From Jannaschia maritima (lineage in GTDB: Bacteria; Pseudomonadota; Alphaproteobacteria; Rhodobacterales; Rhodobacteraceae), in NCBI RefSeq assembly GCF_030973515.1, contig NZ_JARGZA010000004.1, forward strand, positions 124,001 to 188,000: a DNA stretch of 64,000 bases. The letters run 5' to 3'. The stretch's first letter is position 1, and every line of letters starts with the position of its first letter. This document shows positions 17,594 through 52,658 of the stretch, in pieces. Position numbers and translations under genes: made by a program. The notes beneath the pieces were generated by a model. That model was not told the DNA's origin and searched no databases. It was given only the letters and a program-made list of their open reading frames with translations.

Positions 17594-17944
17594 ATGCGAC
17601 GCGCCATCCTGTCCCTCGCCGCCTGTCTGCTGACCCTGCCCGCCGCCGCGCAGGACGAGCCGTCCAGCCTGATGGAACGGGGCATGCGCCTGTTCATGGA
17701 TGGCCTCATCCAGGAGATGGAGCCCGCGTTGCGGGACCTCGAAGACCTGTCCCGCGAGGCCCTGCCCCTCCTGAAGCAGTTGGAGGAGCAGATGCGCGCC
17801 ACCCTGGGCGACCTCGACGACCTGTCCGCCTATGCCGCGCCCGAGATGCTGCCCAACGGCGACATCATCCTGCGCCGCAAGGAACCCCTTCCCCCGCCCG
17901 AACCGATGCCCAAGCCGAACCCCGACGGTTCCGTCGACCTCTAG
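17594..17944 (+). CDS. small exported protein, unknown function (116 aa)
   Basis: A signal peptide (MRRAILSLAACLLTLPAAAQ) is followed by a ~95-residue acidic, helix-rich domain with likely coiled-coil character ('LIQEMEPALRDLEDLSREALPLLKQLEEQMRATLGDLDDL'). The C-terminus is proline-rich and unstructured ('PLPPPEPMPKPNPDG'). Similar short secreted proteins occur in Rhodobacteraceae without a known role. It converges on the rodA end of the mre cluster. A periplasmic or envelope-associated scaffold is possible but unproven. Confidence 0.7.
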   Translation: MRRAILSLAACLLTLPAAAQDEPSSLMERGMRLFMDGLIQEMEPALRDLEDLSREALPLLKQLEEQMRATLGDLDDLSAYAAPEMLPNGDIILRRKEPLPPPEPMPKPNPDGSVDL

Positions 17945-18357
17945 GCCGATCGGCACACGGCCCGTCTCCACCGCCATGCACGCGGCCGGTTCCGAACCCG
18001 GGGGTCCGCTTCGTCCGCGCGCGCCCATCCGCGTCGCGCCCCCTCGGTCGCCGGGATGCGGGGGCAGCGGAACGGCGGACGACCTCCGATGCGATACGCG
18101 ATCCTGTCCGACGCCCCGCAGACGCAGCGCAGACGCGACGCAGACACGCGTCGTACACCCCGCAGGACCGCCGCATCCCGGCCACCGGCGCACCCGCGAC
18201 CGGCGCCCAACCCCCGCATTTCCTGACCGAACGCCCCGGCTTGCACGCCCCCCGCGCTCTCGGTCAGACTGATACCAAGAAACGGTCTCGAACCGGCCCG
18301 ATCCGGAAAACTTATGCCGCAGCGCAGCGAAGCGCGATCCGAGTTGCCCGACCCGCG
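17945..18357. other. 413-base convergent intergenic region with 11-bp repeats
   Basis: Lies between two converging genes. No ORF is convincing. Its notable content is the GCAGAC repeat block at 18107-18150. A lower-G+C tract at about 18268-18325 (ataccaagaaacggtctc...) may belong to the rodA 3' end. Confidence 0.5.
18107..18150 (+). repeat. 11-bp-period GCAGAC repeat block, locus 1
   Basis: Perfect GCAGAC hexamers begin at 18118, 18129 and 18140, exactly 11 bases apart. The units are GCAGACGCAGC, GCAGACGCGAC and GCAGACACGCG. A degenerate unit (TCCGACGCCCC) precedes in the same phase at 18107. Matching blocks occur at 36822-36854 and 52615-52658 on the other strand, and all three finish with a GCAGACAC unit. 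Confidence 0.75.
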
Positions 18358-19527
18358 TCAGCGGCGCAGGAGCTGTCCCTCGCCCGGCAGGCGGGGGCGG
18401 TGGACATGGGCCGATTGCACCAGCCCGAACGCCACCATCAGCACCAAGAGCGCCGATCCGCCATAGCTGACCAGCGGCAGCGGCACCCCCACGACGGGGG
18501 CCAGGCCCATCACCATCGCCATGTTCACCGCGAAGAACAGGAAGAACGTCACCCCCACCCCCAGCGACACGATGGACGCGAACCGGTCCTTCGTCTTCAG
18601 CGCGGTCCACACGCAGAACGCCACGATCAGCACGTACAGCGCCAGCAGCGACAGGGACCCCGCGAAGCCGAAATCCTCTGCCAGGGTGGTGAATATGAAG
18701 TCCGTGTGCTTCTCGGGCAGGAAGTTCAGCCGCGCCTGCGTGCCCTGCATGAACCCCCGCCCCGTCAGCCCGCCCGAGCCCAGCGCGATCTTGGACTGCG
18801 TGATGTGGTATCCCGCGCCCAGGGGGTCGTTCTCCGGGTTCAGGAACGTGTCGATCCTGCGATACTGGTAGTCCTGGAGGATCTGCCAGTCCGTCCCCTT
18901 CGACTTCAGCACGGCGGTCACCAGGCCGACCCCCGCCGCCACGACGGTCGCGAAGTACGCCCAATGCACGCCCGCGATGAACATCACCGCACCGCCGCCC
19001 ATCAGCAGCAGCAACGACGTGCCCAGGTCGGGCTGCTGCACGACCAGCGCGACTGGCAGCAGGATCAGAAGGACCGGCACCAGCACCCATTGCGGGCGGC
19101 TGACCTTCGACGGCGGCAGCCAGTCGTAATAGGCCGCCAGCATCATCACCAGTGTGACCTTCATCAGCTCCGACGGCTGCAGGCGCATGAAGCCCAGGTC
19201 GATCCACCGTTGCGCGCCGCCCCCGCTCGACCCTATCACCTCGACCAGGACCAGCAGAATCAGCCCCAGCGCGTAGAACAACGCGGACACGTTCCGCCAG
19301 AACCAGATCGGAATCATCGCCACCGCGAACATCGCGGCCAGCCCCAGGGCGAAGCGCTGCATCTGCGCCTCCGCCCAGGGCCGCATCGAGCCGCCCGCGA
19401 CCGAATAAAGCACGAGCAGCCCCAGCGCGGCCACAGCGGCGACGGTGATCGTCAGCGCCCAGTTCATCGCCAGGACCTTGCGCAGGCCCGACGGCGTGCG
19501 CGCGACGTTGTATTCCAGATAGCTCAT
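18358..19527 (-). CDS. rodA: RodA, elongasome peptidoglycan polymerase
   Basis: SEDS-family glycosyltransferase (389 aa) that polymerises glycan strands for lateral wall growth with PBP2. About ten membrane segments are present. SEDS signatures include 'QPSELMKVTLVMMLAAYY', 'VQQPDLGTSLLLLMGG', 'LNFLPEKHTDFIFTTLAEDFGF' (with the essential Asp) and 'GVPLPLVSYGGSALL'. Its ATG (19527) overlaps the mrdA stop by four bases, indicating coupled translation. It is the last gene of the mre/mrd cluster. Confidence 0.96.
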   Translation of the reverse strand: MSYLEYNVARTPSGLRKVLAMNWALTITVAAVAALGLLVLYSVAGGSMRPWAEAQMQRFALGLAAMFAVAMIPIWFWRNVSALFYALGLILLVLVEVIGSSGGGAQRWIDLGFMRLQPSELMKVTLVMMLAAYYDWLPPSKVSRPQWVLVPVLLILLPVALVVQQPDLGTSLLLLMGGGAVMFIAGVHWAYFATVVAAGVGLVTAVLKSKGTDWQILQDYQYRRIDTFLNPENDPLGAGYHITQSKIALGSGGLTGRGFMQGTQARLNFLPEKHTDFIFTTLAEDFGFAGSLSLLALYVLIVAFCVWTALKTKDRFASIVSLGVGVTFFLFFAVNMAMVMGLAPVVGVPLPLVSYGGSALLVLMVAFGLVQSAHVHRPRLPGEGQLLRR

Positions 19528-24660: not shown

Positions 24661-25277
24661 GGCGTCTTCGCCTTCGCGGTCCTCTTGGGCACCAGCGGCG
24701 TCAGGTAGTCGGCCTCCTTGCCGCGGCGGGTGCGGTACCCGTCGCCGAAGTTCCGCAACTCCGTTTCGACGGTCGCCCAATCCTGCGCGACGGCGGCCCG
24801 GAAGAACTTGGGCGCGGCCTTCTTCAGGTCGGCGCCGTACTGGAAGGCCACGGACGCGATCACGGTCTGCGCCTCCCGCGCGAGGGCGCGGAAGCGCACC
24901 AGCTTGGGATCGGCCTTCGCGGCCACCGCGGCGTCGTAGCTCGCGGCGATCTGGTTGGCGGCCCGCGTTTTGACCGTCGTGTAGATCAACGTCGACTGCG
25001 CTTGCGTGATCGTCAGCGGCGTCTTTGCCAGGGCGGCCACGGCCTGCGTCCGCTTCAAGCCCGCATAGGGCTTGAGCAGCGCCGCCAGCGCGGGATCGGT
25101 CTTGCCGAAGAAGTCGTCGATCTGGATGGCCGAATGCTGGCCCACGTCGAAGCCGGTCGAGACTGTGACCCCCGACTGGCCCAGGACGGCGCCCGCCGCG
25201 TCCAGCGGGACATAGCCCGTCAGCCTGTCGGCCCCCTCGAGCCCCGCGATGAACTTCCAGTCGATGTTGAACGTCAT
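24657..25277 (-). CDS. pesticin-type (T4-lysozyme-like) muramidase (206 aa)
   Basis: Predicted peptidoglycan muramidase. The N-terminal part reads 'IAGLEGADRLTGYVPLD' and 'SGVTVSTGFDVGQHS', matching the pesticin C-terminal lysozyme domain, in which a Glu (here Glu14) and the T-G-F-D segment form the active site. The remainder is a helical T4L-like body. ATG 25277 is chosen because it has CGGAG about 8 bases upstream; a start 27 bases earlier is also possible. No signal peptide or membrane anchor is visible, so export would need a holin or another route. The cysteine-rich exported protein is coupled downstream and the mre elongasome genes lie beyond it. Confidence 0.75.
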   Translation of the reverse strand: MTFNIDWKFIAGLEGADRLTGYVPLDAAGAVLGQSGVTVSTGFDVGQHSAIQIDDFFGKTDPALAALLKPYAGLKRTQAVAALAKTPLTITQAQSTLIYTTVKTRAANQIAASYDAAVAAKADPKLVRFRALAREAQTVIASVAFQYGADLKKAAPKFFRAAVAQDWATVETELRNFGDGYRTRRGKEADYLTPLVPKRTAKAKTP

Positions 25278-25383
25278 TGCAATGCTCCGAAGGACCGCGG
25301 TCACGGGCGGCGCTACGGGGAACGCGCCCCCGCCGCAACGCCGAGCGCGACGGAAGGGCGGGACACCGCCGACGGGCGCCGTC

Positions 25384-26949
<1,566 letters not shown>

Positions 26950-27026
26950 GGGCGGGATCCTGTGTACCTGGGTGTCTTCTTGGCCGGCGCTGAAACCCTC
27001 CCGAGCGGTCGCGCCGATGGGCACGC

Positions 27027-27071
27027 TCAGGAGCGGCTAAGAAGAAGGTCCAGGAACAGGGTCGTGGTCAT
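27027..27071 (-). promoter_or_regulatory. leuL: leuA leader peptide MTTTLFLDLLLSRS (attenuator)
   Basis: A 14-codon ORF on the leuA strand ends 77 bases before leuA and encodes MTTTLFLDLLLSRS. Five of 14 residues are leucine, including three consecutive CTT codons, rare in this G+C-rich genome. That is the hallmark of a transcription-attenuation leader that stalls when charged leucyl-tRNA is scarce. Downstream, CGCT/AGCG at the leader end, a second CGCTC and GGCGC/GCGCC could form alternative stems. No classical T-run terminator is visible, and the ribosome site is weak. Confidence 0.7.
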
Positions 27072-27154
27072 GACAGCCAGGATACGGAAACGGATGCGGA
27101 TGTGAAGCCCCGTCTTGCCTGGACCGGGGCGATGCGTCCTCTAGGTCGCGGATC

Positions 27155-27805
27155 ATGGAGAACGCACTCGTCATCGGCGCCTCGGGCGGGATCGGGGCGG
27201 CGCTGGCGGATGCGTTGGCGGCGACCTATCACGTGGCCCGCCTGTCGCGGTCCCACGACGGTCTGGACGTCGCCGACCCTGCCTCCGTCGCGGCGCATCT
27301 GGACCCGCTGGCGGGACCCTTCGCCCGTCTGATGATCGCCACAGGCATACTGGCGCCCGACGGGCACACGCCGGAGAAGTCGCTGGACGCCATCGACGCC
27401 GATGCGATGGCGCGGACCTTCGCGGTCAACGCGATCGGTCCCGCGCTGGCGTTGCAAGCGGTCGCGGGCAAGTTGACGGACGACGCGAAGGTCGGCGTAC
27501 TGACGGCGCGGGTGGGCAGCATCGGCGACAACCGGATGGGGGGGTGGTACTCCTATCGCGCGTCGAAGGCCGCCGCGAACCAGATCGTCCACGGCGCGGC
27601 CATCGAGATCGGGCGCAGGCGCAAGGGCGCCGTCGTGGTGGCCCTGCACCCCGGCACCGTCGAGACGCCGTTCACCGAAGGGTACACCGCGAAGAAGCTG
27701 GCCCCCGCGGACAGCGCGGCCAGGCTGCTCGACGTGCTGGATGGGCTGACGCCCCGGCAATCGGGCGGGTTCTTCGACTATGCCGGAGAAGCGATCGAAT
27801 GGTAG
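27155..27805 (+). CDS. SDR-family oxidoreductase (216 aa)
   Basis: Short-chain dehydrogenase with the Rossmann glycine motif 'GASGGIGAALADAL' at residues 8-21, an 'NAIGPAL' segment and the catalytic 'YSYRASKAAAN' (YxxxK). It is shorter than classical SDRs (about 250 aa). It overlaps the photolyase start by 7 bases. SDRs of this CsgA-like type commonly accompany iron-sulfur photolyases in Rhodobacterales, so a link to light/DNA-repair physiology is likely, though no substrate is known. Divergent from the leuA leader. Confidence 0.88.
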   Translation: MENALVIGASGGIGAALADALAATYHVARLSRSHDGLDVADPASVAAHLDPLAGPFARLMIATGILAPDGHTPEKSLDAIDADAMARTFAVNAIGPALALQAVAGKLTDDAKVGVLTARVGSIGDNRMGGWYSYRASKAAANQIVHGAAIEIGRRRKGAVVVALHPGTVETPFTEGYTAKKLAPADSAARLLDVLDGLTPRQSGGFFDYAGEAIEW

Positions 27806-29334
27806 GGCGGCTGATCCTCGTGCTGGGGGACCAACTGTCCGACGATCTGTCCGCCCTGCGGGAGGGATCGAAGGACACCGACACCGTCGTCATGGCCGAG
27901 GTGCGCGCCGAGACGGACTACGTCGCCCACCACCCGCGCAAGATCGCGTTCCTGTTCGCGGCCATGCGCAAGCATGCCGATCACCTGCGGCGCGAAGGCT
28001 GGACCGTCCGTTACACGACGCTGGACGATCCGGAGAACACGCATTCCATCCCGGGCGAATTGCTGCGCGCCGCCCATGCCACGGGCGCCACGGAGGCCAT
28101 CGGGACCGAACCGGGCGAGTTCCGCCTGATCTCCGCGCTGGAGGACGGGCCCCTGCCCGTCCACCTGTTCCCCGACGACCGCTTCCTGTGCGACCACACC
28201 ACGTTCGAGGCCTGGGCCGGAGGGCGCAAGGAGTTGCGGATGGAATGGTTCTATCGCGACATGCGCCGCCGGACCGGCCTGATGATGGATGCGGACGGCA
28301 GGCCCGCGGGCGACAAGTGGAACTACGACCACGACAACCGCAAGCCCGCCCCCGACGACGTGTCCGACGCCGACGGCCCCCTGAAGTTCGAGCCCGACGA
28401 GACGACGCAGGCCGTGCTGGATCTGGTCCGCACCACCTTCGGCAACCGATATGGCAGCCTGGACGGGTTCTGGTTCGCCACGGACCGTCCGGGCGCGCTG
28501 AAGGCGCTGGACCATTTCGTGGCGCGGTCCCTGCCCAAGTTCGGCGACTTCCAGGACGCGATGGTGACCGGCGCCCCGTTCCTGTACCACGCGATCCTGT
28601 CGGTCTATCTGAATGCGGGCCTGCTGGGCTGGCGCGAGGTCTGCGAGGCGGCCGAGCGGGCGTGGAAGGACGGCAACGTCCCGATCAACGCGGCCGAAGG
28701 CTTCATCCGACAGATCATCGGATGGCGGGAATACATCCGCGGGGTCTATTTCCTCGAAGGGCCCGACTATCCGCAGCGCAACGAGCTGGGCCATTCACGC
28801 GACCTGCCCGACTTCTATTGGACCGCCGAGACGGACATGCACTGCGTGGCCGAATGCGTCACCGCGACGATGGAGGAGGCGTATGCCCACCACATCCAGC
28901 GGCTGATGGTCACGGGCAACTTCGGATTGCTGGCCGGACTGGACCCGCAGCAGGTCAGCGAGTGGTACCTGATCGTGTATGCCGACGCCTACGAATGGGT
29001 CGAGAGCCCCAACGTGATCGGGATGTCGCAGTTCGCCGACGGGGGCGTGGTCGGGTCGAAGCCCTACGTTTCGGGCGGCAACTACATCAACAGGATGTCG
29101 GACTACTGCAAGCATTGCAGCTATTCGGTCACGAAGAAGACGGGCGACGGCGCATGCCCGTTCAACCTGCTCTACTGGCACTTCCTGGACCGCCATCGCG
29201 ACCGGTTCCAGTCGAACCCCCGCATGGCGCAGATGTACCGGACCTGGGACCGCATGGACGAGGACCGCCGCCGGACGGTCATCGCAGACGGCGACAGGAT
29301 CCTGGCCAGGCTGGACGCGGGCGAACGGGTCTGA
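27799..29334 (+). CDS. phrB: iron-sulfur bacterial cryptochrome/photolyase (PhrB type)
   Basis: FAD-containing photolyase/cryptochrome of the FeS-BCP class (511 aa), whose studied members repair (6-4) photoproducts. The N-terminal antenna domain 'LILVLGDQLSDDLSALREG' is followed by the FAD domain ('GWREYIRGVYFLEGPDYPQRN', 'YAHHIQRLMVTGNFGLLAG', 'PYVSGGNYINRMSDYCKHC'). The [4Fe-4S] cysteines are C349, C437, C440 and C453, each one position before the numbering known for Agrobacterium PhrB. The His pair in 'YAHHIQRLM' and the Tyr/Asn FAD contacts are kept. It starts inside the SDR gene (ATG 27799). Confidence 0.95.
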   Translation: MVGRLILVLGDQLSDDLSALREGSKDTDTVVMAEVRAETDYVAHHPRKIAFLFAAMRKHADHLRREGWTVRYTTLDDPENTHSIPGELLRAAHATGATEAIGTEPGEFRLISALEDGPLPVHLFPDDRFLCDHTTFEAWAGGRKELRMEWFYRDMRRRTGLMMDADGRPAGDKWNYDHDNRKPAPDDVSDADGPLKFEPDETTQAVLDLVRTTFGNRYGSLDGFWFATDRPGALKALDHFVARSLPKFGDFQDAMVTGAPFLYHAILSVYLNAGLLGWREVCEAAERAWKDGNVPINAAEGFIRQIIGWREYIRGVYFLEGPDYPQRNELGHSRDLPDFYWTAETDMHCVAECVTATMEEAYAHHIQRLMVTGNFGLLAGLDPQQVSEWYLIVYADAYEWVESPNVIGMSQFADGGVVGSKPYVSGGNYINRMSDYCKHCSYSVTKKTGDGACPFNLLYWHFLDRHRDRFQSNPRMAQMYRTWDRMDEDRRRTVIADGDRILARLDAGERV

Positions 29335-29495
29335 TCCGGCGCCCGAGGGCCATCGCGGGCGAGGCGACGGCCCCCGGCCCCGATGGGATGCGGCGCCGCG
29401 GACATGCCCGCAGCATCACCGACGTTTCGCCCCAATTCGGCCCCGCCCGACGGCGATGACCGGGCGTGACGGCGTCCAGCGCGGAAGGCGAGGCC

Positions 29496-30200
29496 ATGCA
29501 GATCGAACGCATCGACGCGGAGGCGGCCGCCAAGATGGCGACGCCGGTCGCCGCCCCCCGCAAGCCGCAGGGCACGGGATCGGGATCGTGGGAGGACGGG
29601 TGGGGTCACGGCCTGCCCGACGAGGCGGTCATGAAGGCGGTGATCGCCGAAGGCCGGCGCAAGGCCCGCGCCCGCCGCGACGCGACGTCGGAGGTCGCCC
29701 CGGAACTGAAGCGCCTGCCCCTTGGGACGCGGATCGCCACGGACGTGACGAACCGCCTGCGCGCCCTGATCGGACGCCTGCGGCCCCGCCCCTGGCCCCA
29801 GGACGCCGGTGCGGAGGCCGCGACCGCTCCCGCCGCGGCGAAGGCCGCCGCGCGGGTGGAGGGAACGCTGACCCTGCACCCGATGCTGCCGGCCCGGTCC
29901 CTGATGGTCCATGCGCTGATCGCCGACCGCTTGGAGGTCGAGGCCCCGACCTGCACCCTGCACGCCCGCGTGGCCCTGTCCGCGATCCTTCGCGGCGCCC
30001 CGCTGGACGGCATCGTGGCCGAGATGGTGGTCGCCGACGGTGGCGGCCGTCCCCGCGTGGCCCTGCTGCGCGACCAACCGATGGACCGCGCCCTGGAGGA
30101 CGCGCTGAAGCGGGCCGGCCTGCCCGTGGTCGACGTGAGCGACGACCCCAAGGCGGAGGAGGTGTGGAAACGGATCCGGGGGTGGCTGCCGGGGGCATGA
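29496..30200 (+). CDS. conserved hypothetical protein (234 aa)
   Basis: No family is recognised. ATG 29496 is preferred ('gaaggcgag' upstream) over a GTG at 29466. The first ~60 residues are polar and low-complexity ('RKPQGTGSGSWEDGWGHG'); residues 65-120 are basic and alanine-rich. A compact alpha/beta domain spans the last 120 residues ('LPARSLMVHALIADRLEVEAP' to 'ALLRDQPMDRALEDALKRAGLPVVDVSDDPKAEEVWKRI'). The last part loosely resembles DUF2726-type domains, but this is weak. No signal peptide. Confidence 0.6.
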   Translation: MQIERIDAEAAAKMATPVAAPRKPQGTGSGSWEDGWGHGLPDEAVMKAVIAEGRRKARARRDATSEVAPELKRLPLGTRIATDVTNRLRALIGRLRPRPWPQDAGAEAATAPAAAKAAARVEGTLTLHPMLPARSLMVHALIADRLEVEAPTCTLHARVALSAILRGAPLDGIVAEMVVADGGGRPRVALLRDQPMDRALEDALKRAGLPVVDVSDDPKAEEVWKRIRGWLPGA

Positions 30201-30293
30201 ACGCCAGGCCGTGGCCGATCCCGTCCGCCGCCGCCGATGCTGCATGGGCGGGACACGGCGACGTGACCGTGCGGCGCGACGGCGACCAGCACC

Positions 30294-31508
30294 TTACCGT
30301 CGATTGGCGCGTGCAACCATCCGCCGCAACTGCGGGAGCGTCCGTTCGAACGCGGCGGCGAAGGGCAGGCAGAGCGCTATCGGCAGAACGACGAAGAGCG
30401 CGGCCTTTCCCGGCACGTCCTCCGGCAGGCCCGCATCCATGAGGTGCATGACCGGATAGTGCATGACGTAGATCGAGAAGCTCGCCCCTGCCCACCAGCG
30501 GATCGCGCGGATCGCGGCCCCACCGAGGGACGGCGCGACGCGGGCCATGCCCAGCAGGTGCAGCGCCAGGGCGAGGGCGATCAAGCCGTTCCATAGGACC
30601 TCCTGCCCGAAGTCGAAGACGTGGACGTGCCGTATAGGGCCCAGCCAGTCCGGGGTCGCCCGCAGCAGCGCCTCGTCGACATGGGAAAGCTTGGCCGCGA
30701 CGAGTGCGGCGATCGGAAGGATCGCGAGCGGGAGGGCGACCGCGCGCCGTCGCGGCACGCGTCCGCTGCGGATCGCATGCCACACGCCGAGCCCGGCGAG
30801 CCATGTCGGCAGCAGCAGCAGGATGGACAGGCCGAACAGCCACCCGAGCGCCGCGAGCGCCGCGACGCGGACCCAGCCCGACAGGAACAGGGCGGTGCCG
30901 AGCAGGACGTAGTAGGCCGCCTCGAAGCTTAGCGACCAGAGGGGCGCGTTCGACCCAAGTTGCACCGGCGCCCCCGCACCGCGCCATTGCTGCAAGAAGG
31001 TGAGGCCGCGGACGAGGAACTCCACGATCGGGAGCGCCGTGTAGTGACGCGGCGGGTAGGCGCCCGGGTCGATCGCGCGGCCCACGGCGTCCAGCAGGAG
31101 GGTCAGCAGCAGCGCGGGCGCGACGACGCCGAGCAGCCGGGTCAGGCGGTTGAAGGCGTACGTGCCCCACGTCCGATCACGCGCAGCGGCCCGGCCGATC
31201 ACCAGGCCCGATACCACGAAGAAGACCACCACCGCATCGGGGGCGAGGGTCCAGGACCGGACCCAGCCGAGGTCGCCATCGGTGAATCGCAGGTTGCCCG
31301 CATGGCCCAGGACGACCACGAGCGCGGCGAGGGTCCGCAGGAGGTCGAGCCAGACCGACAGCTCGGAGGACAGGTCTCCAGCCTCGGACGTGCGGGCATG
31401 CGGATGGACGGCCGAACGCGGGCCATCCGCGGCATCGGATCGAACGGGTCGGCCATGGGGATGATGAGCGTCGGTCACGCGAAACCCATAGGCGCCGCAG
31501 CGGATCAC
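30294..31508 (-). CDS. acyltransferase family 3 membrane protein (up to 404 aa)
   Basis: Integral membrane O-acyltransferase of the family that modifies polysaccharides and lipids. The conserved domain begins near residue 48 ('LSVWLDLLRTLAALVVVLGHAG', with the catalytic-type His) and has about ten membrane segments, including 'VVVFFVVSGLVIGRAA' and the C-terminal 'ASFSIYVMHYPVMHL'. The first ~45 residues are polar and histidine-rich. The true start may be GTG 31508 or GTG 31478 or further in. No glycan gene cluster adjoins it, so its substrate is open. Confidence 0.82.
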   Translation of the reverse strand: MIRCGAYGFRVTDAHHPHGRPVRSDAADGPRSAVHPHARTSEAGDLSSELSVWLDLLRTLAALVVVLGHAGNLRFTDGDLGWVRSWTLAPDAVVVFFVVSGLVIGRAAARDRTWGTYAFNRLTRLLGVVAPALLLTLLLDAVGRAIDPGAYPPRHYTALPIVEFLVRGLTFLQQWRGAGAPVQLGSNAPLWSLSFEAAYYVLLGTALFLSGWVRVAALAALGWLFGLSILLLLPTWLAGLGVWHAIRSGRVPRRRAVALPLAILPIAALVAAKLSHVDEALLRATPDWLGPIRHVHVFDFGQEVLWNGLIALALALHLLGMARVAPSLGGAAIRAIRWWAGASFSIYVMHYPVMHLMDAGLPEDVPGKAALFVVLPIALCLPFAAAFERTLPQLRRMVARANRR

Positions 31509-31758
31509 GTCCGAGAATATAACGAGATAGGGTCAAGGCCATCCGGAACCCGCCGACACCCCGTGTCGATCGACCCCGGCCTATCGCGGCACGGGCGGCG
31601 GCTTTCCCAAAGCGTGGTAGCGCAAGGTCCCGTGGGCGCATCGACCCGTGGAATGGACGTGGAGGGCGCGCCCCGAACCGTGCATGGCGACCGGCCCCGA
31701 ACGGCCCGCGATGCGGGTCCGGTTCTTTCGGCGCAGCCGTGTTCGGTGCGAACGGCCC

Positions 31759-33150
31759 CTATTCGACCACGGACCCGTCCAGCACGAAGTCGCCGCCCTG
31801 CCATTCGCCGTCCTCGACCTGGCCGGTGGCATAGCGCATGGTGCCGGGACCCTCGCGGCGGCCGGCGACGAAAGATCCCTCGTAGACGTCGCCGTTCGGA
31901 TAGGTCGCGGTGCCGGTGCCGTCGATCTCGCCGTCCGACCAGCCGCCTTCGTAGACGAAGCCGTCCGCCATCTCGATGCGACCCGTCCCGTCGCGTTCGC
32001 CGTCCACGAAGGTGCCTTCGTACACGGTGCCGTCCGCATAGGTGGCGGTGCCCTGCCCATGGCGTAGACCGTCGCGCCACTCCCCGTCGTAGCGGTACCC
32101 GTCCGGCGCGGTCATCACGCCCCGGCCGTGGTTGCGCGCTTCCCGAAAGCCGCCTTCGTAGACGAGGCCGTTTGGATACTCCGCCCGCCCCTGACCGTCG
32201 ATCAGGCCGCCCGACCATTCCCCCTCGTAGGTCGATCCGTCGGCATACACGATCCGCCCCTGCCCGTCCGCCACGTCGTCGGCGAACGACCCTTCGTAGA
32301 CAGACCCGTCGGCATAGGTCGCGCGCCCCTCGCCCGCGATGCGCCCGTCCGCCCATTCGCCGACATAGACGTATCCGTCCGTCCCGGTGAACGTGCCCTG
32401 ACCGTGGCGGCGGTCGTCCTCGAACCGGCCCTCGTACACGTCGCCGTTGGCATAGGTCACGGTCCCGTCGCCCTGCCGGCGGCCGTCCACCAGCTCACCG
32501 ACATAGACGTCGCCGTTGGGCTGGGTCAGCGTCCCCCGCCCTTCGATCCGGCCCTGCACCCATTCGCCGTCGTAGGTCAGCCCGTCCGGCGTGGTCAGGA
32601 CGCCCGTGCCGGAGCGCAGGTTGTCCTCCATCCCGCCGACATAGGTGGAGCCGTCGGAATAGGTGATCGACCCCTCGCCCTGCTTGACGCCCTGCGACCA
32701 GCCCCCGTCGTAGCGATAGCCGTCCTCCCCCTCCAGCACGCCCTGGCCGTGATGGACCGCATCGAGGAACCCGCCGACATAGACGGACCCGTTGGCATAG
32801 CGGGCGGTGCCCTGCCCTTCGATCCGGCCATCGACCCAGTCCCCGTCGTAGGTGCCGCCATCGGCGAAGGTGATCCGCCCCCGCCCTTCCGGCTTGCCGG
32901 CGGCGAACTGCCCTTCGTAGACGGACCCGTCGGGGAACGTCGCGCGCCCGTCGCCGCGGATCTCTCCGTCGACCCAATCGCCCGTGTACTCGTAGCCCGA
33001 CGGCAGGGTGTAGGTCCCCGTGCCGTGCTGCAGGCCGTCCCGGAACGTCCCCTCGTAGACGCCGCCACCGGCGTACTGCTTGGTCACCACCTCCTGCGCG
33101 GCGGCGGGCGCCGTGGCCAGGATGGCCCCCAGGACGACGATACGGAACAT
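31759..33150 (-). CDS. exported MORN-repeat protein (463 aa, 19 repeats)
   Basis: A signal peptide (MFRIVVLGAILATAPAAAQ) is followed by about 18 full and one partial 23-residue MORN repeats (pattern GxxYEGxWxDGxxxGxGxxxYxD), covering the whole mature protein. MORN repeats form elongated beta-sheet strips that bind lipids or other proteins; in bacteria exported examples are poorly understood. The repeats are very regular in protein and DNA, hinting at expansion by duplication. The tail is 'WQGGDFVLDGSVVE'. Divergent from nadE (130-base gap). The 250-base gap downstream to 31508 shows no gene. Confidence 0.9.
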   Translation of the reverse strand: MFRIVVLGAILATAPAAAQEVVTKQYAGGGVYEGTFRDGLQHGTGTYTLPSGYEYTGDWVDGEIRGDGRATFPDGSVYEGQFAAGKPEGRGRITFADGGTYDGDWVDGRIEGQGTARYANGSVYVGGFLDAVHHGQGVLEGEDGYRYDGGWSQGVKQGEGSITYSDGSTYVGGMEDNLRSGTGVLTTPDGLTYDGEWVQGRIEGRGTLTQPNGDVYVGELVDGRRQGDGTVTYANGDVYEGRFEDDRRHGQGTFTGTDGYVYVGEWADGRIAGEGRATYADGSVYEGSFADDVADGQGRIVYADGSTYEGEWSGGLIDGQGRAEYPNGLVYEGGFREARNHGRGVMTAPDGYRYDGEWRDGLRHGQGTATYADGTVYEGTFVDGERDGTGRIEMADGFVYEGGWSDGEIDGTGTATYPNGDVYEGSFVAGRREGPGTMRYATGQVEDGEWQGGDFVLDGSVVE

Positions 33151-33280
33151 GGCACACCCTCGGTCTTTCCCATCCGCGGGCACGCTAGGTCAGGGGGGGA
33201 CCGGGGGCAACCGGGCAGGCCGTTCCGCCGCAGCCCGCGCCGCCTTCCCCCCCGCCCTCCGGCGGGCTAGGTCGCGGGCC

Positions 33281-34954
33281 ATGACCGATGCACCACGCAC
33301 CTTCCGCCTGTCGCTGGCGCAACTGAACCCCGTGATGGGCGACCTGTCCGGCAACGCCGGCCGCATCCGCGAGGCCTGGGCCGCGGCGCGCGACGCGGGC
33401 GCCGACATGGTCGCGTGCCCGGAGATGGCGTTGACGGGCTATCAGCCGATGGACCTGATCCGGAAGCCCGCCTTCGTGGCCGACGCCACCGCGCATCTGG
33501 ACCGGCTGGTGACCGATTGCGCCGACGGGCCCGCGCTGGGCGTGGGCCTGGCCGTCTGGCCGCCGGGCAGCGTGAAGCCCTTCAACGCGTGGATCGTGGC
33601 GCACCGGGGCAAGGTCGTGGCGGAGGTGCTGAAGCACCACTTGCCCAACTACAAGGTGTTCGACGAGAAGCGATACTTCCATTCGGGCGACATCGCGGGA
33701 CCCTATGCGGTGAACGGCGTGCGCATCGGCACCCCTATCTGCGAGGATGCCTGGTTCGACGACGTCGCCGAGACGCTGGCCGAGACAGGGGCCGAGATCC
33801 TGGTCGTGCCCAACGGGTCGCCGTACTTCCGCGGCAAGCAGGACGTGCGGTATTCGCACATGGTCGCCCGCACGGTCGAGACGGGGCTGCCGCTGGCCTA
33901 TCTGAACCTGGTGGGCGGGCAGGACGACCAGATCTTCGACGGGGCCAGCTTCGTGCTGAACCCCGGCGGGCAGTTGACCCATCACCTGCCGTCCTTCGAG
34001 ACGGCGCAGGAGACGGTCACCTTCCGGGACACGGCGGAGGGTTGGCGGGCCGAGGACGGGCGCAAGGCGCCGCAGCCCGACGGGGTCGGCGCGGACTATC
34101 AGGCGATGGTGCTGGCGACGCGCGACTACATGCGCAAGGCGGGGTTCGACCGCGCGCTCCTGGGCCTGTCGGGCGGCGTGGACAGTGCCATCGTGGCCGC
34201 GGTCGCGGCCGACGCGCTGGGCCCCGCGAACGTGCATTGCGTGATGCTGCCCAGCGAGTACACCTCGCAGCACAGCCTGGAGGACGCGGAGGGCGTGGCC
34301 CGCGCGCTGGGGACCAAGCTGGACACCCTGCCGATCTCGGGGCCGAGGGCGGCGGTGACCGAAGCGTTGGCGGAGTTGTTCGCCGGCACGGAGCCGGATC
34401 TGGCGGAGGAGAACATCCAGTCCCGCCTGCGCGGCCTGCTGCTGATGGCGCTGTCGAACAAGTTCGGTGCGATGCTGCTGACCACGGGCAACAAGTCCGA
34501 GGTCGCGGTGGGCTATGCCACGATCTACGGGGACATGTCGGGCGGCTACAACCCGGTGAAGGACCTCTACAAGATGCAGGTCTTCGCGGCCTGCCGGTGG
34601 CGCAACCAGAACCACGTGGACTGGTTCGAAGGGCCGCCCGGCACTGTCATCCCGCCCCGCGTGATCGAGAAGCCGCCCAGCGCGGAGTTGCGCGAGGATC
34701 AGAAGGACGAGGATTCGCTGCCGCCCTATCCGGTGCTGGACGACATCCTGGAACGCCTGATCGACGGCGAGCAGTCCGTGGGCGAGGTGGTGGAGGCGGG
34801 GCACGATCGGGCAATCGTCAAGAAGATCGAATCGCTGATCTATGCCAGCGAATACAAGCGGTTCCAGTCCGCGCCCGGCGCGCGTCTGACGCAACGGGCG
34901 TTCTGGCTTGATCGACGTTACCCGATCGTCAACCGATGGCGGGATCCGAGTTGA
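33281..34954 (+). CDS. nadE: glutamine-dependent NAD+ synthetase
   Basis: Makes NAD+ from deamido-NAD+ with glutamine-derived ammonia (557 aa). The N-terminal nitrilase-type glutaminase (residues ~1-260) has Glu in 'CPEMALTGYQP', Lys in 'VLKHHLPNYKVFDEKR' and the nucleophile Cys in 'GTPICEDAWFDD'. The C-terminal ATP-pyrophosphatase domain carries 'LGLSGGVDSAIVAAV' (SGGVDS P-loop) and 'LLTTGNKSEVAVGYATIYGDMSGGYNP'. Start ATG 33281. Confidence 0.95.
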   Translation: MTDAPRTFRLSLAQLNPVMGDLSGNAGRIREAWAAARDAGADMVACPEMALTGYQPMDLIRKPAFVADATAHLDRLVTDCADGPALGVGLAVWPPGSVKPFNAWIVAHRGKVVAEVLKHHLPNYKVFDEKRYFHSGDIAGPYAVNGVRIGTPICEDAWFDDVAETLAETGAEILVVPNGSPYFRGKQDVRYSHMVARTVETGLPLAYLNLVGGQDDQIFDGASFVLNPGGQLTHHLPSFETAQETVTFRDTAEGWRAEDGRKAPQPDGVGADYQAMVLATRDYMRKAGFDRALLGLSGGVDSAIVAAVAADALGPANVHCVMLPSEYTSQHSLEDAEGVARALGTKLDTLPISGPRAAVTEALAELFAGTEPDLAEENIQSRLRGLLLMALSNKFGAMLLTTGNKSEVAVGYATIYGDMSGGYNPVKDLYKMQVFAACRWRNQNHVDWFEGPPGTVIPPRVIEKPPSAELREDQKDEDSLPPYPVLDDILERLIDGEQSVGEVVEAGHDRAIVKKIESLIYASEYKRFQSAPGARLTQRAFWLDRRYPIVNRWRDPS

Positions 34955-34963
34955 TACGGGCGT

Positions 34964-34984
34964 GTCCCGGACTCGACCCGGGAC
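34964..34984. repeat. palindromic element GTCCCGG...CCGGGAC
   Basis: A 7-bp stem with loop ACTCGAC, 10 bases after nadE. It resembles the 'CCGGG..TCAAG/CTCGA..CCCGG' palindromes scattered in alphaproteobacterial genomes and may also act as the nadE terminator. Confidence 0.55.
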
Positions 34985-35026
34985 CGTTTGCGATCTGCCG
35001 GACCGTCCGACCAGGTCGATCGAGGA

Positions 35027-35043
35027 CCCGGGTCAAGCCCGGG
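35027..35043. repeat. palindromic element CCCGGG-TCAAG-CCCGGG
   Basis: Six-bp stem with the loop TCAAG. The same loop and near-identical stem occur inside carB at 56512-56530, so both belong to one repeat family. Confidence 0.6.
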
Positions 35044-35045
35044 AT

Positions 35046-35078
35046 GGGCACCGAGACCCCTTCGCGGTCTCAGTGCCC
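35046..35078. terminator. long hairpin overlapping end of small-protein gene
   Basis: GGGCAC and GAGACC (35046-35058) pair with GGTCTC and GTGCCC (35066-35078), giving 12 bp with one mismatch and a seven-base loop. It overlaps the stop of the small minus-strand ORF and could terminate that operon or stabilise both converging transcripts. No clear T-run. Confidence 0.5.
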
Positions 35079-35141
35079 GAACATGAACAGAAGCACGCTG
35101 ATGACGATCAGGCCCAGAAGCAGCTTCATTCCGTCGTTCAT
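35070..35141 (-). CDS. 23-residue single-pass membrane peptide
   Basis: [23 protein letters not shown]: four polar or charged residues, then one continuous hydrophobic helix. Its ATG overlaps the stop of the lipase-like gene by four bases (ATGA), the usual sign of coupled translation, and a strong hairpin covers its end. No family is known. It could be a small regulatory membrane protein; it could also be chance, as the ORF is very short. Confidence 0.45.
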
Positions 35142-35917
35142 TCCACCAGCCCTTCCAGCACCGCGTCCAGTTCCTCGTCCAGGCCTATCACGTCCAGCGC
35201 CGCCGTTAGGTCGAGGTCGGGATCGAACGCCCCCCGCCGCAGGTAGCGCAAGGTCTGCGCGATGACGACCGGGTTGTTCATCATGAAGGTGTGGCTGACG
35301 GGCAGGACGACGTGGTCCTCCATCCCGTCCAGCCGGGTGGAGGCGACGGACACCTTGCCGTCGTCGGGACCCGGCAGGATCGCGGAATAGATCGCCGACA
35401 GGCTGCTGTCGCCCGCGATGACCGCCACGCCGGGCCAAGCGCCGGGCAGGTCCTCCACGATCCCGTCGGTGCCCAGCTGCCCCCCCGCCGGTCCGTTCAG
35501 CCAATCGAAGGGCGGCCAGTCCGACAGGGCGTCGACCAGTTCGGATCCCCCGTTGGGCGGAGCCAGCATCACCGTGCGGCCCGGCGGCATCGGGTTCGCC
35601 TGCGCATGGACGCGCAGGAGGATCCCACCCATCGAATGGGTCACGAAATGGATGCGCGCGGTATCCCCACAGGCCGCGATGGCGGCGGGCACGGCGCTGG
35701 ACGCGAGCGTGCGGACGTCCGCTTCGCCCGACGCGTAGTCGCTGTTGATCACGGCGAAGCCCGCCAGCTCCAACGCCTCCTCCATCACGATCAGGGAGGC
35801 GTCGCTTCGGGCCAGACCGTGCAGCAGGACCACGCAGTCGGGCCCATGGGGCAGCACCTTCGATTGTGCGGGTGCGGCGAGAAAAAATATCAGGACGAGG
35901 GCGGTGAGACGGGTCAT
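35138..35917 (-). CDS. exported lipase/esterase-like alpha/beta hydrolase (259 aa)
   Basis: A signal peptide ([19 protein letters not shown]) precedes the domain. '[15 protein letters not shown]' is the oxyanion HG segment and '[12 protein letters not shown]' the nucleophile elbow (GxSxG-like H-S-M-G-G). '[12 protein letters not shown]' holds the catalytic His. It resembles bacterial triacylglycerol-lipase/PGAP1-like proteins. The ATG at 35917 overlaps the upstream transporter stop (ATGA); a start at 35929 is possible. Likely hydrolyses esters in the periplasm or outside the cell. Confidence 0.82.
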
Positions 35918-36747
35918 GCGCGTGTCCATCTGACTGTCGCGAGCGCGATGCCCGCGAGGACGATCAGACCCGCGGAAAGGGATCGGATGGTGGGAAGTTC
36001 CTGCAACAATGCCGCCCCCAGGATCATGGCGATGACGGGCACGGACAGTTGGGCGACGCCCGCCATCGCCAGCCCGATTCGGGGCAGGATCGTATAGAGC
36101 AGCGCATATCCCAAGCCCGACGCCACGGCGCCCGACGCGACGGCGAGCGCGATGCCGGACGGGGTCCACGCCCCGCCCCACCAGACCGGCAGCAAGGCCG
36201 CGAAGAACGCGGCGGCGAGGGCGAAGTTTCCCGCGTTGCCCGCCAAAGGCCGCGGTTCGTACTTGCCGGCGTAGCTGTAGGCGGCCCAACCCAGTCCGGC
36301 GGCGATCATCAGGGCCGCATCGACAGGGGCGGCACCGGCGATGCCGGTGCCCGTGGGCCATAGCAACAAGGCCAGTCCGGCCAACGCAAGCGTCATGCCC
36401 GCCAGGCGCACGGGCCCCAACGGCTCCGCCCGCAGTGCGCCTGCGGCCAGCAGGCCCAGCTGCACGGTAGCGAACAGGATCAGCGCGCCCAGGCCCGCGT
36501 CGAGCGTGCGATAGGCCAGCGAGAATCCAAGGAGATACACGACGAGTGCGGCGGCCGCCGACCAGCGCGCGCGCCCCGCCACGGGCACCGCGCCGCGCAC
36601 CAGGATCGCCAGGGTCGCGGCACCCGCGGCCACGCGGATCGCGGCGAAGGTCAGGGGGTCGGTGCCGGCCAAGACGCCCGCCCGGGTCAGAAGCGAATTG
36701 GACGCCATCAGCGTCATCGTCAGACCGGCGAGGAGGATCAGGCGCAT
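35914..36747 (-). CDS. EamA/DMT-family transporter (277 aa)
   Basis: Ten-helix drug/metabolite exporter with two EamA domains: '[26 protein letters not shown]' at the N-terminus and '[25 protein letters not shown]' in the second half. Full length. It is coupled to the lipase-like gene by a four-base overlap. It differs clearly from the exporter at the left edge, so the two are not recent duplicates. Substrate unknown. Confidence 0.88.
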
Positions 36748-36821: not shown

Positions 36822-36854
36822 TGCGTGTCTGCCCTACGTCTGCTCCGCGTCGGA
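36822..36854 (-). repeat. 11-bp-period GCAGAC repeat block, locus 3
   Basis: On the minus strand the units are TCCGACGCGGA, GCAGACGTAGG and GCAGACACGCA, each 11 bases. The order (degenerate TCCGACGC unit, GCAGACG unit, final GCAGACAC unit) matches locus 1 at 18107-18150. It lies in the 122-base gap between the DUF2161 and EamA genes. Confidence 0.7.
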
Positions 36855-36869
36855 TATCCGTCCGACACC

Positions 36870-43055: not shown

Positions 43056-43446
43056 CCGTGCGGGGGGCCGGGCGGCCGCGGGTTTCGATCCGAGGAAAGT
43101 CCGGACTCCACGAAGCGACGGTGCCGGGTAACGCCCGGGCGGCGATCGTCGGGGGAACCCGACGGGAAGCCGACGGATAGCGCCACAGAGAACAGACCGC
43201 CGTCCCGCGGGGCGGCAAGGGTGAAACGGTGGGGTAAGGGCCCACCGGGGGCGCGGCGACGGGCCCCGCATGGCAAGCCCCACCGGGAGCAATGCCGAAT
43301 AGGGACCGCACGCCGCGTGCGGCAGGGGTGCTTCGCCCCCGCGGTCCGGGTTGGCAGCTTCAGGCCCGCAGCGATGCGCGGTCGAGATGAATGGTCGCCG
43401 CCCCCCCCGGGGGACACAGAATCCGGCTTACAGGCCCCCCGCATGA
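43056..43446 (+). ncRNA. rnpB: RNase P RNA, class A
   Basis: Catalytic RNA that trims tRNA 5' leaders. The CR-I core 'GAGGAAAGTCCGGACTCCA' (43100-43118 region), 'GGTAAGGGCCCACCG' and the 3' 'AGAATCCGGCTTACAGGCC' are all present. The P1 stem is perfect: 12 bases at 43058-43069 pair with 43433-43444 (one G-U), which fixes both ends to within a few bases. P3/P12-like GC stems are present between. The promoter probably lies inside the amidase gene. Confidence 0.95.
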
Positions 43447-52614: not shown

Positions 52615-52658
52615 CCGGTGTCTGCACCGCGTCTGCGCGGCGTCTGCCCTGCGTCTGC
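52615..52658 (-). repeat. 11-bp-period GCAGAC repeat block, locus 2
   Basis: Four perfect GCAGAC hexamers on the minus strand (GTCTGC at 52620, 52631, 52642 and 52653 on plus), exactly 11 bases apart. Units in order are GCAGACGCAGG, GCAGACGCCGC, GCAGACGCGGT and GCAGACACCGG. First and last units match those of locus 1. It lies between the divergent KASIII and BrnA-like genes, 71 bases from the KASIII start. Confidence 0.8.

Follow-up and report, generated by a model that had tools for sequence, protein, structure and literature searches.

Between the gene of a small, putatively exported protein and the convergent gene rodA of Jannaschia maritima, the hexamer GCAGAC recurs three times at steps of exactly 11 bp, and this locus raises the question of what such phased arrays are and what might read them. 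The window that was analysed is a stretch of 64,000 nt (G000:C40:124001-188000) of the J. maritima genome (G000; 3.67 Mb, 45 contigs). Genes were called with our own codon-usage gene caller, a non-standard tool, and gene names are readings of the translated proteins rather than database results. The features of the window used below are as follows.

17594-17944, plus strand: small gene for a putatively exported protein, which ends ahead of block 1 and 413 bp short of the rodA stop
18107-18117, plus strand: degenerate lead unit, TCCGAC and five further bases (TCCGACGC at 18107), one 11-bp step before block 1
18118-18150, plus strand: block 1, three phased GCAGAC units starting at 18118, 18129 and 18140
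18241-18270, plus strand: putative promoter-like pair TTGCAC ... CAGACT, part of the class A composite, 95 bp past block 1
18315-18328, plus strand: tail motif TGCCGCAGCGCAGC, conserved in the class A composite
18358-19527, minus strand: rodA, the convergent neighbour of block 1
36827-36843, minus strand: two phased GCAGAC units, at 36827 and 36838
36844-36865, minus strand: two lead units, TCCGACGCGGA preceded by GTCGGACGGAT, with TCCGACGC at 36844-36854
52620-52658, minus strand: four phased GCAGAC units, at 52620, 52631, 52642 and 52653, 75 bp upstream of a FabH-like gene

An earlier note on this DNA had described three GCAGAC sites in strict 11-base phase, and the letters of the window bear out their phase, unit numbers and strands, as well as the degenerate first unit said to be common to two of the loci, which was found as TCCGACGC at 18107 (plus strand) and at 36844-36854 (minus strand). 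The pattern GCAGACN5GCAGAC has six matches in the window with one mismatch allowed, all of them exact, compared with a mean of 0.66 and a maximum of 3 in 100 shuffled versions. At gathering thresholds RNase P RNA (its class A form, at 43060-43446) was the only RNA family in the window, and a tRNA search of the window found none.

In the whole J. maritima genome, GCAGAC in 11-bp phase gave 101 two-unit and 53 three-unit matches; a control with the reversed pattern (45 two-unit and 9 three-unit matches) is contaminated, because the reversed pattern CAGACG..CAGACG sits in the same arrays. Loci of two-unit matches were taken with their flanks for alignment (the 101st match falls in the sampled end of C45), and 48 blocks were aligned, 4 with two exact units, 35 with three and 9 with four. 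GCAGAC is present in all 149 units by construction, and the base after it is G or A in 146 of them. The usual layout is a lead unit, GTCCGACGCGG, then GCAGACGCRNN three times and then ACGCGCCG. A lead unit of the form [TC]C[CG]GAC stands exactly one step ahead of the array in 37 of the 48 blocks, against a background of 0.28%. The 60 bp upstream contain GANTC in 25 of the 48, against a background of 4.6%. The excess of phased blocks that the earlier note had proposed to look for genome-wide was thus found in these 48 blocks; the shared terminal unit that it described, GCAGACAC, is common among them without being universal.

The blocks had also been described as intergenic throughout, which holds for the three sites of the window and, by our gene calls, for 46 of the 48 blocks genome-wide; the other two lie within coding sequence, in genes read as glnE and valS. 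As to placement, 28 blocks occupy convergent junctions, 9 and 5 co-directional ones and 2 divergent ones, 2 are in coding sequence and 2 have a gene called on one side only. Convergent junctions make up 28 of the 44 that bear arrays, compared with 23 of 211 array-free junctions (P = 9e-13; fetched loci and window, with the 4 blocks outside called junctions omitted), a background that is local since most fetched loci centre on arrays.

Thirty-two of the blocks, including that at 18118 in the window, share a longer arrangement, the class A composite, in which the array is followed by TTGC ... GCTC-N5-CANWCT, which form a promoter-like pair with about 17-18 bp between them. The distance from array to -35-like element is 91-95 bp in 27 of the 32, 104-105 bp in three, 116 bp in one and 139 bp in one, and the five longer distances (+11, +12, +12, +23 and +46 bp) fall near whole helical turns, as happened in 0.17% of trials with random sets. 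The tail YGCYGCANYGCRGC lies 43-47 bp past the promoter-like pair in 31 class A loci and 57 bp past it in one, and 26 of the 32 composites stand between convergent genes. All 19 genome matches of a 29-bp form of the promoter-like pattern are at class A loci. Most of the composites are directed towards a convergent gene and into its 3′ end, and they are possible orphan promoters or antisense or small RNA genes. The tail motif YGCYGCANYGCRGC itself has 47 genome matches, some of them beyond class A loci, and its reversed control has 8.

None of 19 other genomes of the genus has the exact GCAGAC triple; 5 of 394 family genomes including J. maritima have it, and in one of these it is a simple tandem repeat. 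The looser CAGAC triple occurs in 26 of the 394, in several of them at a single tandem place, and stands at several separate places in J. maritima (54 matches), G194 (24), G071 (9), G210 (8), G304 (3) and G215 (2). The spacing is more widely shared than the word. A de novo scan for exact triple hexamers in eight samples (1.99 Mb; seven genus genomes and the window) found 14 arrays of period 11 in six samples, with 2 in the window, 4 in G015, 3 in G006, 3 in G001 and 1 each in G014 and G008; the 200-kb samples of G013 and G019 held no such triple. Fifteen other periods from 7 to 29 that are not multiples of 3 gave 3 arrays, all in G001 and with periods 22 and 28. Multiples of 3 were left out of the scan, and the raw matches there (5 at period 9 and 15 at period 12 in G015; 3 at period 12 in the window) were put down to codon periodicity. 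A chance origin of the phased arrays is ruled out by the window shuffles and this period scan.

Arrays of the same build are spelled in different words, or dialects, in different genomes: TCACCC in G006, G014 and G008, GTGCAC in G001 and G015, and CCAGAC or GCAGAC in other genera. Three-unit matches of KCACCC (K is G or T, and GCACCC is the GTGCAC dialect on the opposite strand) occur in 12 of 20 genus genomes, with counts of 42, 21, 18, 16, 11, 10, 3, 2, 2, 1, 1 and 1, whereas the reversed control gave none in all 20. A fourth word, GTAACAC, read by eye from the valS loop of G016 and G017, has 11 two-unit matches in G016 (one of them that in valS) and 7 in G017, and none in the 18 others. Brought into a common orientation the words read GCAGACG, CCAGACG, GTGCACR, TCACCCG and TAACACR, the last without an orientation of its own that is independent. 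The lead unit is TCSGAC in 37 of the 48 J. maritima arrays and in 18 of 29 TCACCC arrays; elsewhere it is CCCGAC in 5 of 9 arrays (G071), CCATAC in 8 of 16 (G194) and GCAGAC in 8 of 16 GTGCAC arrays. The six genus genomes G005, G009, G010, G011, G012 and G019 had no array with the words tried, and G019 alone of these was sampled de novo. In a tree resting on 808 ValS columns, G016 and G017 stand beside G004, a TCACCC genome, and J. maritima beside G015, G001 and G012; G013 has 2 matches of the GTGCAC word (as GCACCC), yet stands apart from G001 and G015. Within J. maritima, a GTGCAC-word array, in the word of its sister species, lies directly upstream of lpdA (L068:949-976, G000:C41:245319-245346), 1.5 kb from a GCAGAC array, and is possibly a relic dialect.

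Different words were also found at the same sites. A hypervariable coding loop of valS carries phased repeats in 6 of the 20 genus genomes and in three dialects, as judged by eye: four GCAGAC units in J. maritima, two TCACCC units in G008 and in G003, in G014 one TCACCC unit together with a TCCGAC unit, and in G016 and G017 degenerate AACAC units; the phase-11 repeat is absent from this loop in the remaining 14. A comparison of the genes beside 150 array entries, in which some loci were entered repeatedly, gave six further shared sites.

gltD 3′ end: G004, G014, G194 and G210
lpdA upstream region: J. maritima (GTGCAC word) and G194
KpsC-like coding loop: G001, G006 and G007
zapE-like 3′ end: G006 and G015
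upstream of a sulfotransferase-like gene: G006 and G194
upstream of a gene for 142 amino acids: G001, G013 and G210, inverted between dialects

The orientation of the arrays agrees at six of these seven sites, the exception being that beside the 142-aa gene. Because GTGCAC is palindromic, its both-strand count in G001 (7 of 14) is uninformative, and its orientation was set by the lead unit GCAGACG and by the agreement of most shared sites, before the skew test described below; agreement at GTGCAC shared sites is therefore not independent, since those sites partly chose the orientation of the word. By a rough estimate, about one coincidence of same side and same orientation is expected among the compared pairs. 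Candidates at an AGXT-like gene, sufS-glnE, a GapA-like gene, rplB and the G194/G210 pair L156/L166 were left uncounted for side, distance, low identity or same word. Since orthologous sites hold arrays in different dialects, a location can outlive its word.

The direction of the arrays follows the composition of the DNA around them. The array strand is C-rich in 115 of 128 arrays (2.4-kb flanks, P about 1e-21), namely in 43/48 in J. maritima, 16/17 fetched loci of G194, 7/8 in G210, 7/9 in G071, 26/29 TCACCC arrays and 16/17 GTGCAC arrays. This holds regardless of gene direction, in 64 of 75 arrays where coding is mainly with the array and in 51 of 53 where it is mainly against it. We averaged the GC skew of third codon positions over genes of both strands to obtain a component free of gene direction, which for 129 arrays was -0.10 and -0.10 over the 1.6 kb upstream, -0.14 and -0.09 over the 1.6 kb downstream, and -0.05 and -0.02 in the 0.8 kb after that. 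For 24 arrays with long flanks, the upstream values were -0.11 (2 kb), -0.11 (2-4 kb), -0.06 (4-8 kb) and -0.03 (8-16 kb, with an interval that includes 0), and the downstream values -0.06 (2 kb), -0.03 (2-4 kb, with an interval that includes 0) and about 0 farther away; 95% of random placements stayed within about 0.07 outside the central bin. In these 24 arrays the asymmetry thus decays within 2-8 kb: farther than 2 kb downstream or 8 kb upstream it could not be told from 0. T-A asymmetry stays weakly negative on all sides, with no peak at the arrays. The effect is visible in the window beside 18118 and 52620, and rodA has a third-codon-position GC skew of -0.25 on the plus strand, the strand of block 1. 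Opposite array orientations 19 kb apart in the window leave a simple replichore rule unsupported. The cumulative GC skew of the window has its minimum region at 25000-36000, the left part being mostly negative and the part from about 36 kb positive. We infer the polarity of the arrays from composition, not from replication data.

The arrays resemble the KOPS and AIMS sequences in their orientation bias, their species-specific words and their dispersal; those sequences likewise follow strand composition. KOPS are hundreds of single 8-mers per genome, whereas the arrays are multi-unit and number in the tens (48 blocks in J. maritima, 37 loci in G194), and their bias was seen locally (2-8 kb) rather than by replichore. 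Along the chromosome, the 37 loci of G194 are evenly spaced (CV 0.67, P = 0.008; its 17 three-unit loci alone, P = 0.06), and the 18 arrays of G006 show no even spacing (CV 0.99). A likeness is also offered by the local GC-skew peaks of Rhodobacterales, probably the same bacterial order, which were found with 10-kb windows and linked to core and gene-transfer-agent genes; the portion of that source used here describes no phased repeat at the peaks (PMC9836097).

The reading that we favour, at about even confidence, is that a candidate protein with a polar action on the chromosome binds the arrays, and that the DNA sequence it recognises has turned over from species to species. In this proposal each 11-bp step, a 7-bp word and a 4-bp spacer, would hold one DNA-binding domain, and three or four protomers would sit side by side on a single helix face after the more constant lead unit. 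The sites would form a chromosome-wide set in this bacterial family, placed between genes (with convergent junctions favoured in J. maritima) and in permissive coding loops, their direction fixed to local strand composition. The most likely target of the candidate protein would be the chromosome itself, on which it would act in a polar way, for instance as a landmark for orientation, for loading or for forks or recombination. In J. maritima most copies also keep a constant helical spacing to a promoter-like sequence, and the word at shared sites would have been replaced in place as the specificity of the protein changed. The role would then be a polar one at the level of the chromosome, with a transcriptional by-role in J. 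maritima.

That the arrays are helically aligned protein-binding sites used genome-wide, as the earlier note had suggested, is supported by their strict period of 11, their cooperative-type geometry and the orthologous positions that they share; to this the present analysis adds the species dialects, the promoter-like composite, the arrays in coding sequence and the polarity with strand composition. On sequence grounds they would belong with phased direct-repeat binding sites, a known kind, with the binding putative. For M. tuberculosis PhoP, the portion of the source used here describes 7-bp motifs with a strict 4-bp spacer and tighter binding of three- and four-motif arrays (PMC4832192). Since the 7+4 geometry and the arrays of three or four match this case, the site is most economically read as one for cooperative head-to-tail binding. 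The binding protein, its tandem binding, its change of specificity and its chromosomal role are what we infer from these observations.

More tentatively, and with confidence somewhat below that given to the favoured reading, the family may possess a polar landmark system: tens of phased arrays and a rapidly re-coding binding protein, with whole sets of sites that change their word from one sister species to the next but keep positions and direction, each array centring a zone of a few kb of strand-specific mutation or repair, possibly underlying the Rhodobacterales GC-skew peaks. If so, the specificity of tens of DNA sites and of their reader would have shifted in concert, several times in a single genus and with the positions unchanged, which to our knowledge is rarely seen in bacteria. 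Such co-evolution of protein and site could be traced stepwise, in G004 versus G016/G017 and in G001/G015 versus J. maritima. Local GC-skew peaks would moreover have a concrete candidate cause, and polar chromosome processes such as replication, segregation, recombination and gene-transfer-agent packaging could be measured at dozens of fixed sites in each genome.

Among the alternatives, the one that survives best is that the arrays are operators of an ordinary OmpR/PhoB-type response regulator with a large regulon, whose recognition helix drifted between species, composition and intragenic copies being side effects; we regard this as unlikely, while still taking it seriously. The arrays resemble PhoB, PhoP and OmpR sites in their 11-bp direct repeats of head-to-tail units with 6-7 conserved and 4-5 variable bases, a geometry that alone is no proof of a protein of that type. 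A number of arrays precede a gene start or a promoter-like sequence (at genes read by us as pgk, mgtE, fdxA, ppk, aat, a tRNA gene and FabH-like), lpdA is preceded by an array in two genera, and the class A distance between array and promoter-like pair shifts by whole helical turns, all of which a regulator would account for. Its operators would be expected at promoters, however, and the arrays lie mostly at convergent junctions, with some in coding loops (valS, glnE and the KpsC-like gene) and a minority upstream of genes, class A bringing its own promoter-like pair. Unlike PhoB, PhoP and OmpR sites, moreover, they differ in word within a genus, and their orientation tracks strand composition rather than gene direction. 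A simple promoter regulon is weakened by the array positions; convergent junctions, arrays within reading frames and polarity indicate that promoter control is not the whole function, and hence favour the chromosome-level polar role. In alphaproteobacteria, the portions of two sources used here mention an 11-bp putative ChvI motif and a 14-bp BvrR motif; these are response regulators of related bacteria, and the same portions describe neither phased multi-unit arrays nor a link to the present words (PMC3687685, PMC9491525). Titles and the beginnings of abstracts in the literature searched, with most subscription literature outside the scope, gave no account of such arrays.

Less probable still is a dispersed copy-paste repeat of MITE or REP type that carries the arrays, the dialects being successive subfamilies that overwrote one another at permissive sites. 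The earlier note had allowed for a small mobile repeat with fixed ends, and this is supported in part, for class A of J. maritima, the only set of copies with homology between defined ends. Linker and leader are homologous between its copies (median identity 0.64, against 0.56 and 0.53 when shuffled), and there is about no homology outside the composite (flanks 0.575 and 0.55, against 0.56 and 0.54). At the rodA junction of G001, the closest relative, the stop codons of the orthologues are 3 nt apart and the element is absent, so the composite was gained in J. maritima or lost in G001. Several G001 arrays (L262, L264, L265, L269 and L280) have upstream flanks of about 100 bp that look alike by eye, which suggests recent copying, and a repeat of this kind would also fit arrays in permissive loops and at gene ends. 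As in REP and MITE repeats, tens of copies are intergenic, often behind stop codons, and lineage-specific. Unlike them, the arrays have no hairpin common to all (by inspection), are helically phased with fixed internal spacing, and share positions across genera. The J. maritima copies have diverged, with identities of at most 0.80 between linkers and at most 0.79 between whole elements (one 40-bp leader pair reaches 0.90), while the strict spacings and the lead unit were retained. Arrays at orthologous sites in different genomes, across genera and in different words, show that recent insertion does not suffice to explain the sites. The divergence of copies in J. maritima and the sites shared across genomes weaken the case for recent transposition as the only cause.

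An RNA-level element, such as a Rho-utilisation or protein-binding site in 3′ untranslated regions, would fit arrays that often stand behind stop codons and the T-rich hairpin seen by eye after some G071 arrays, but it is very improbable, given that the period and the class A spacing shifts are those of the DNA helix, that some arrays precede genes and that arrays occur in both directions with respect to genes, and that orientation tracks DNA strand composition.

Some further observations concern single loci and distant matches. As regards a possible phage origin, three dialect patterns matched 1, 1 and 25 contigs of IMG/VR. Among the matches listed, Chitinophaga sp. E66 (L327, L332, L374 and others) has the GCAGACG pattern at 33-bp steps, probably a protein repeat without relation to these arrays. 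In J. maritima, a four-unit array (L071, G000:C42:178713-178751) lies between two co-directional genes, and because one of these is BchY-like, it is probably in a photosynthesis gene cluster. The array at L059 (G000:C33:20264-20291) stands just upstream of a TTGACA promoter-like sequence, which is followed, as judged by eye, by an apparent tRNA gene.
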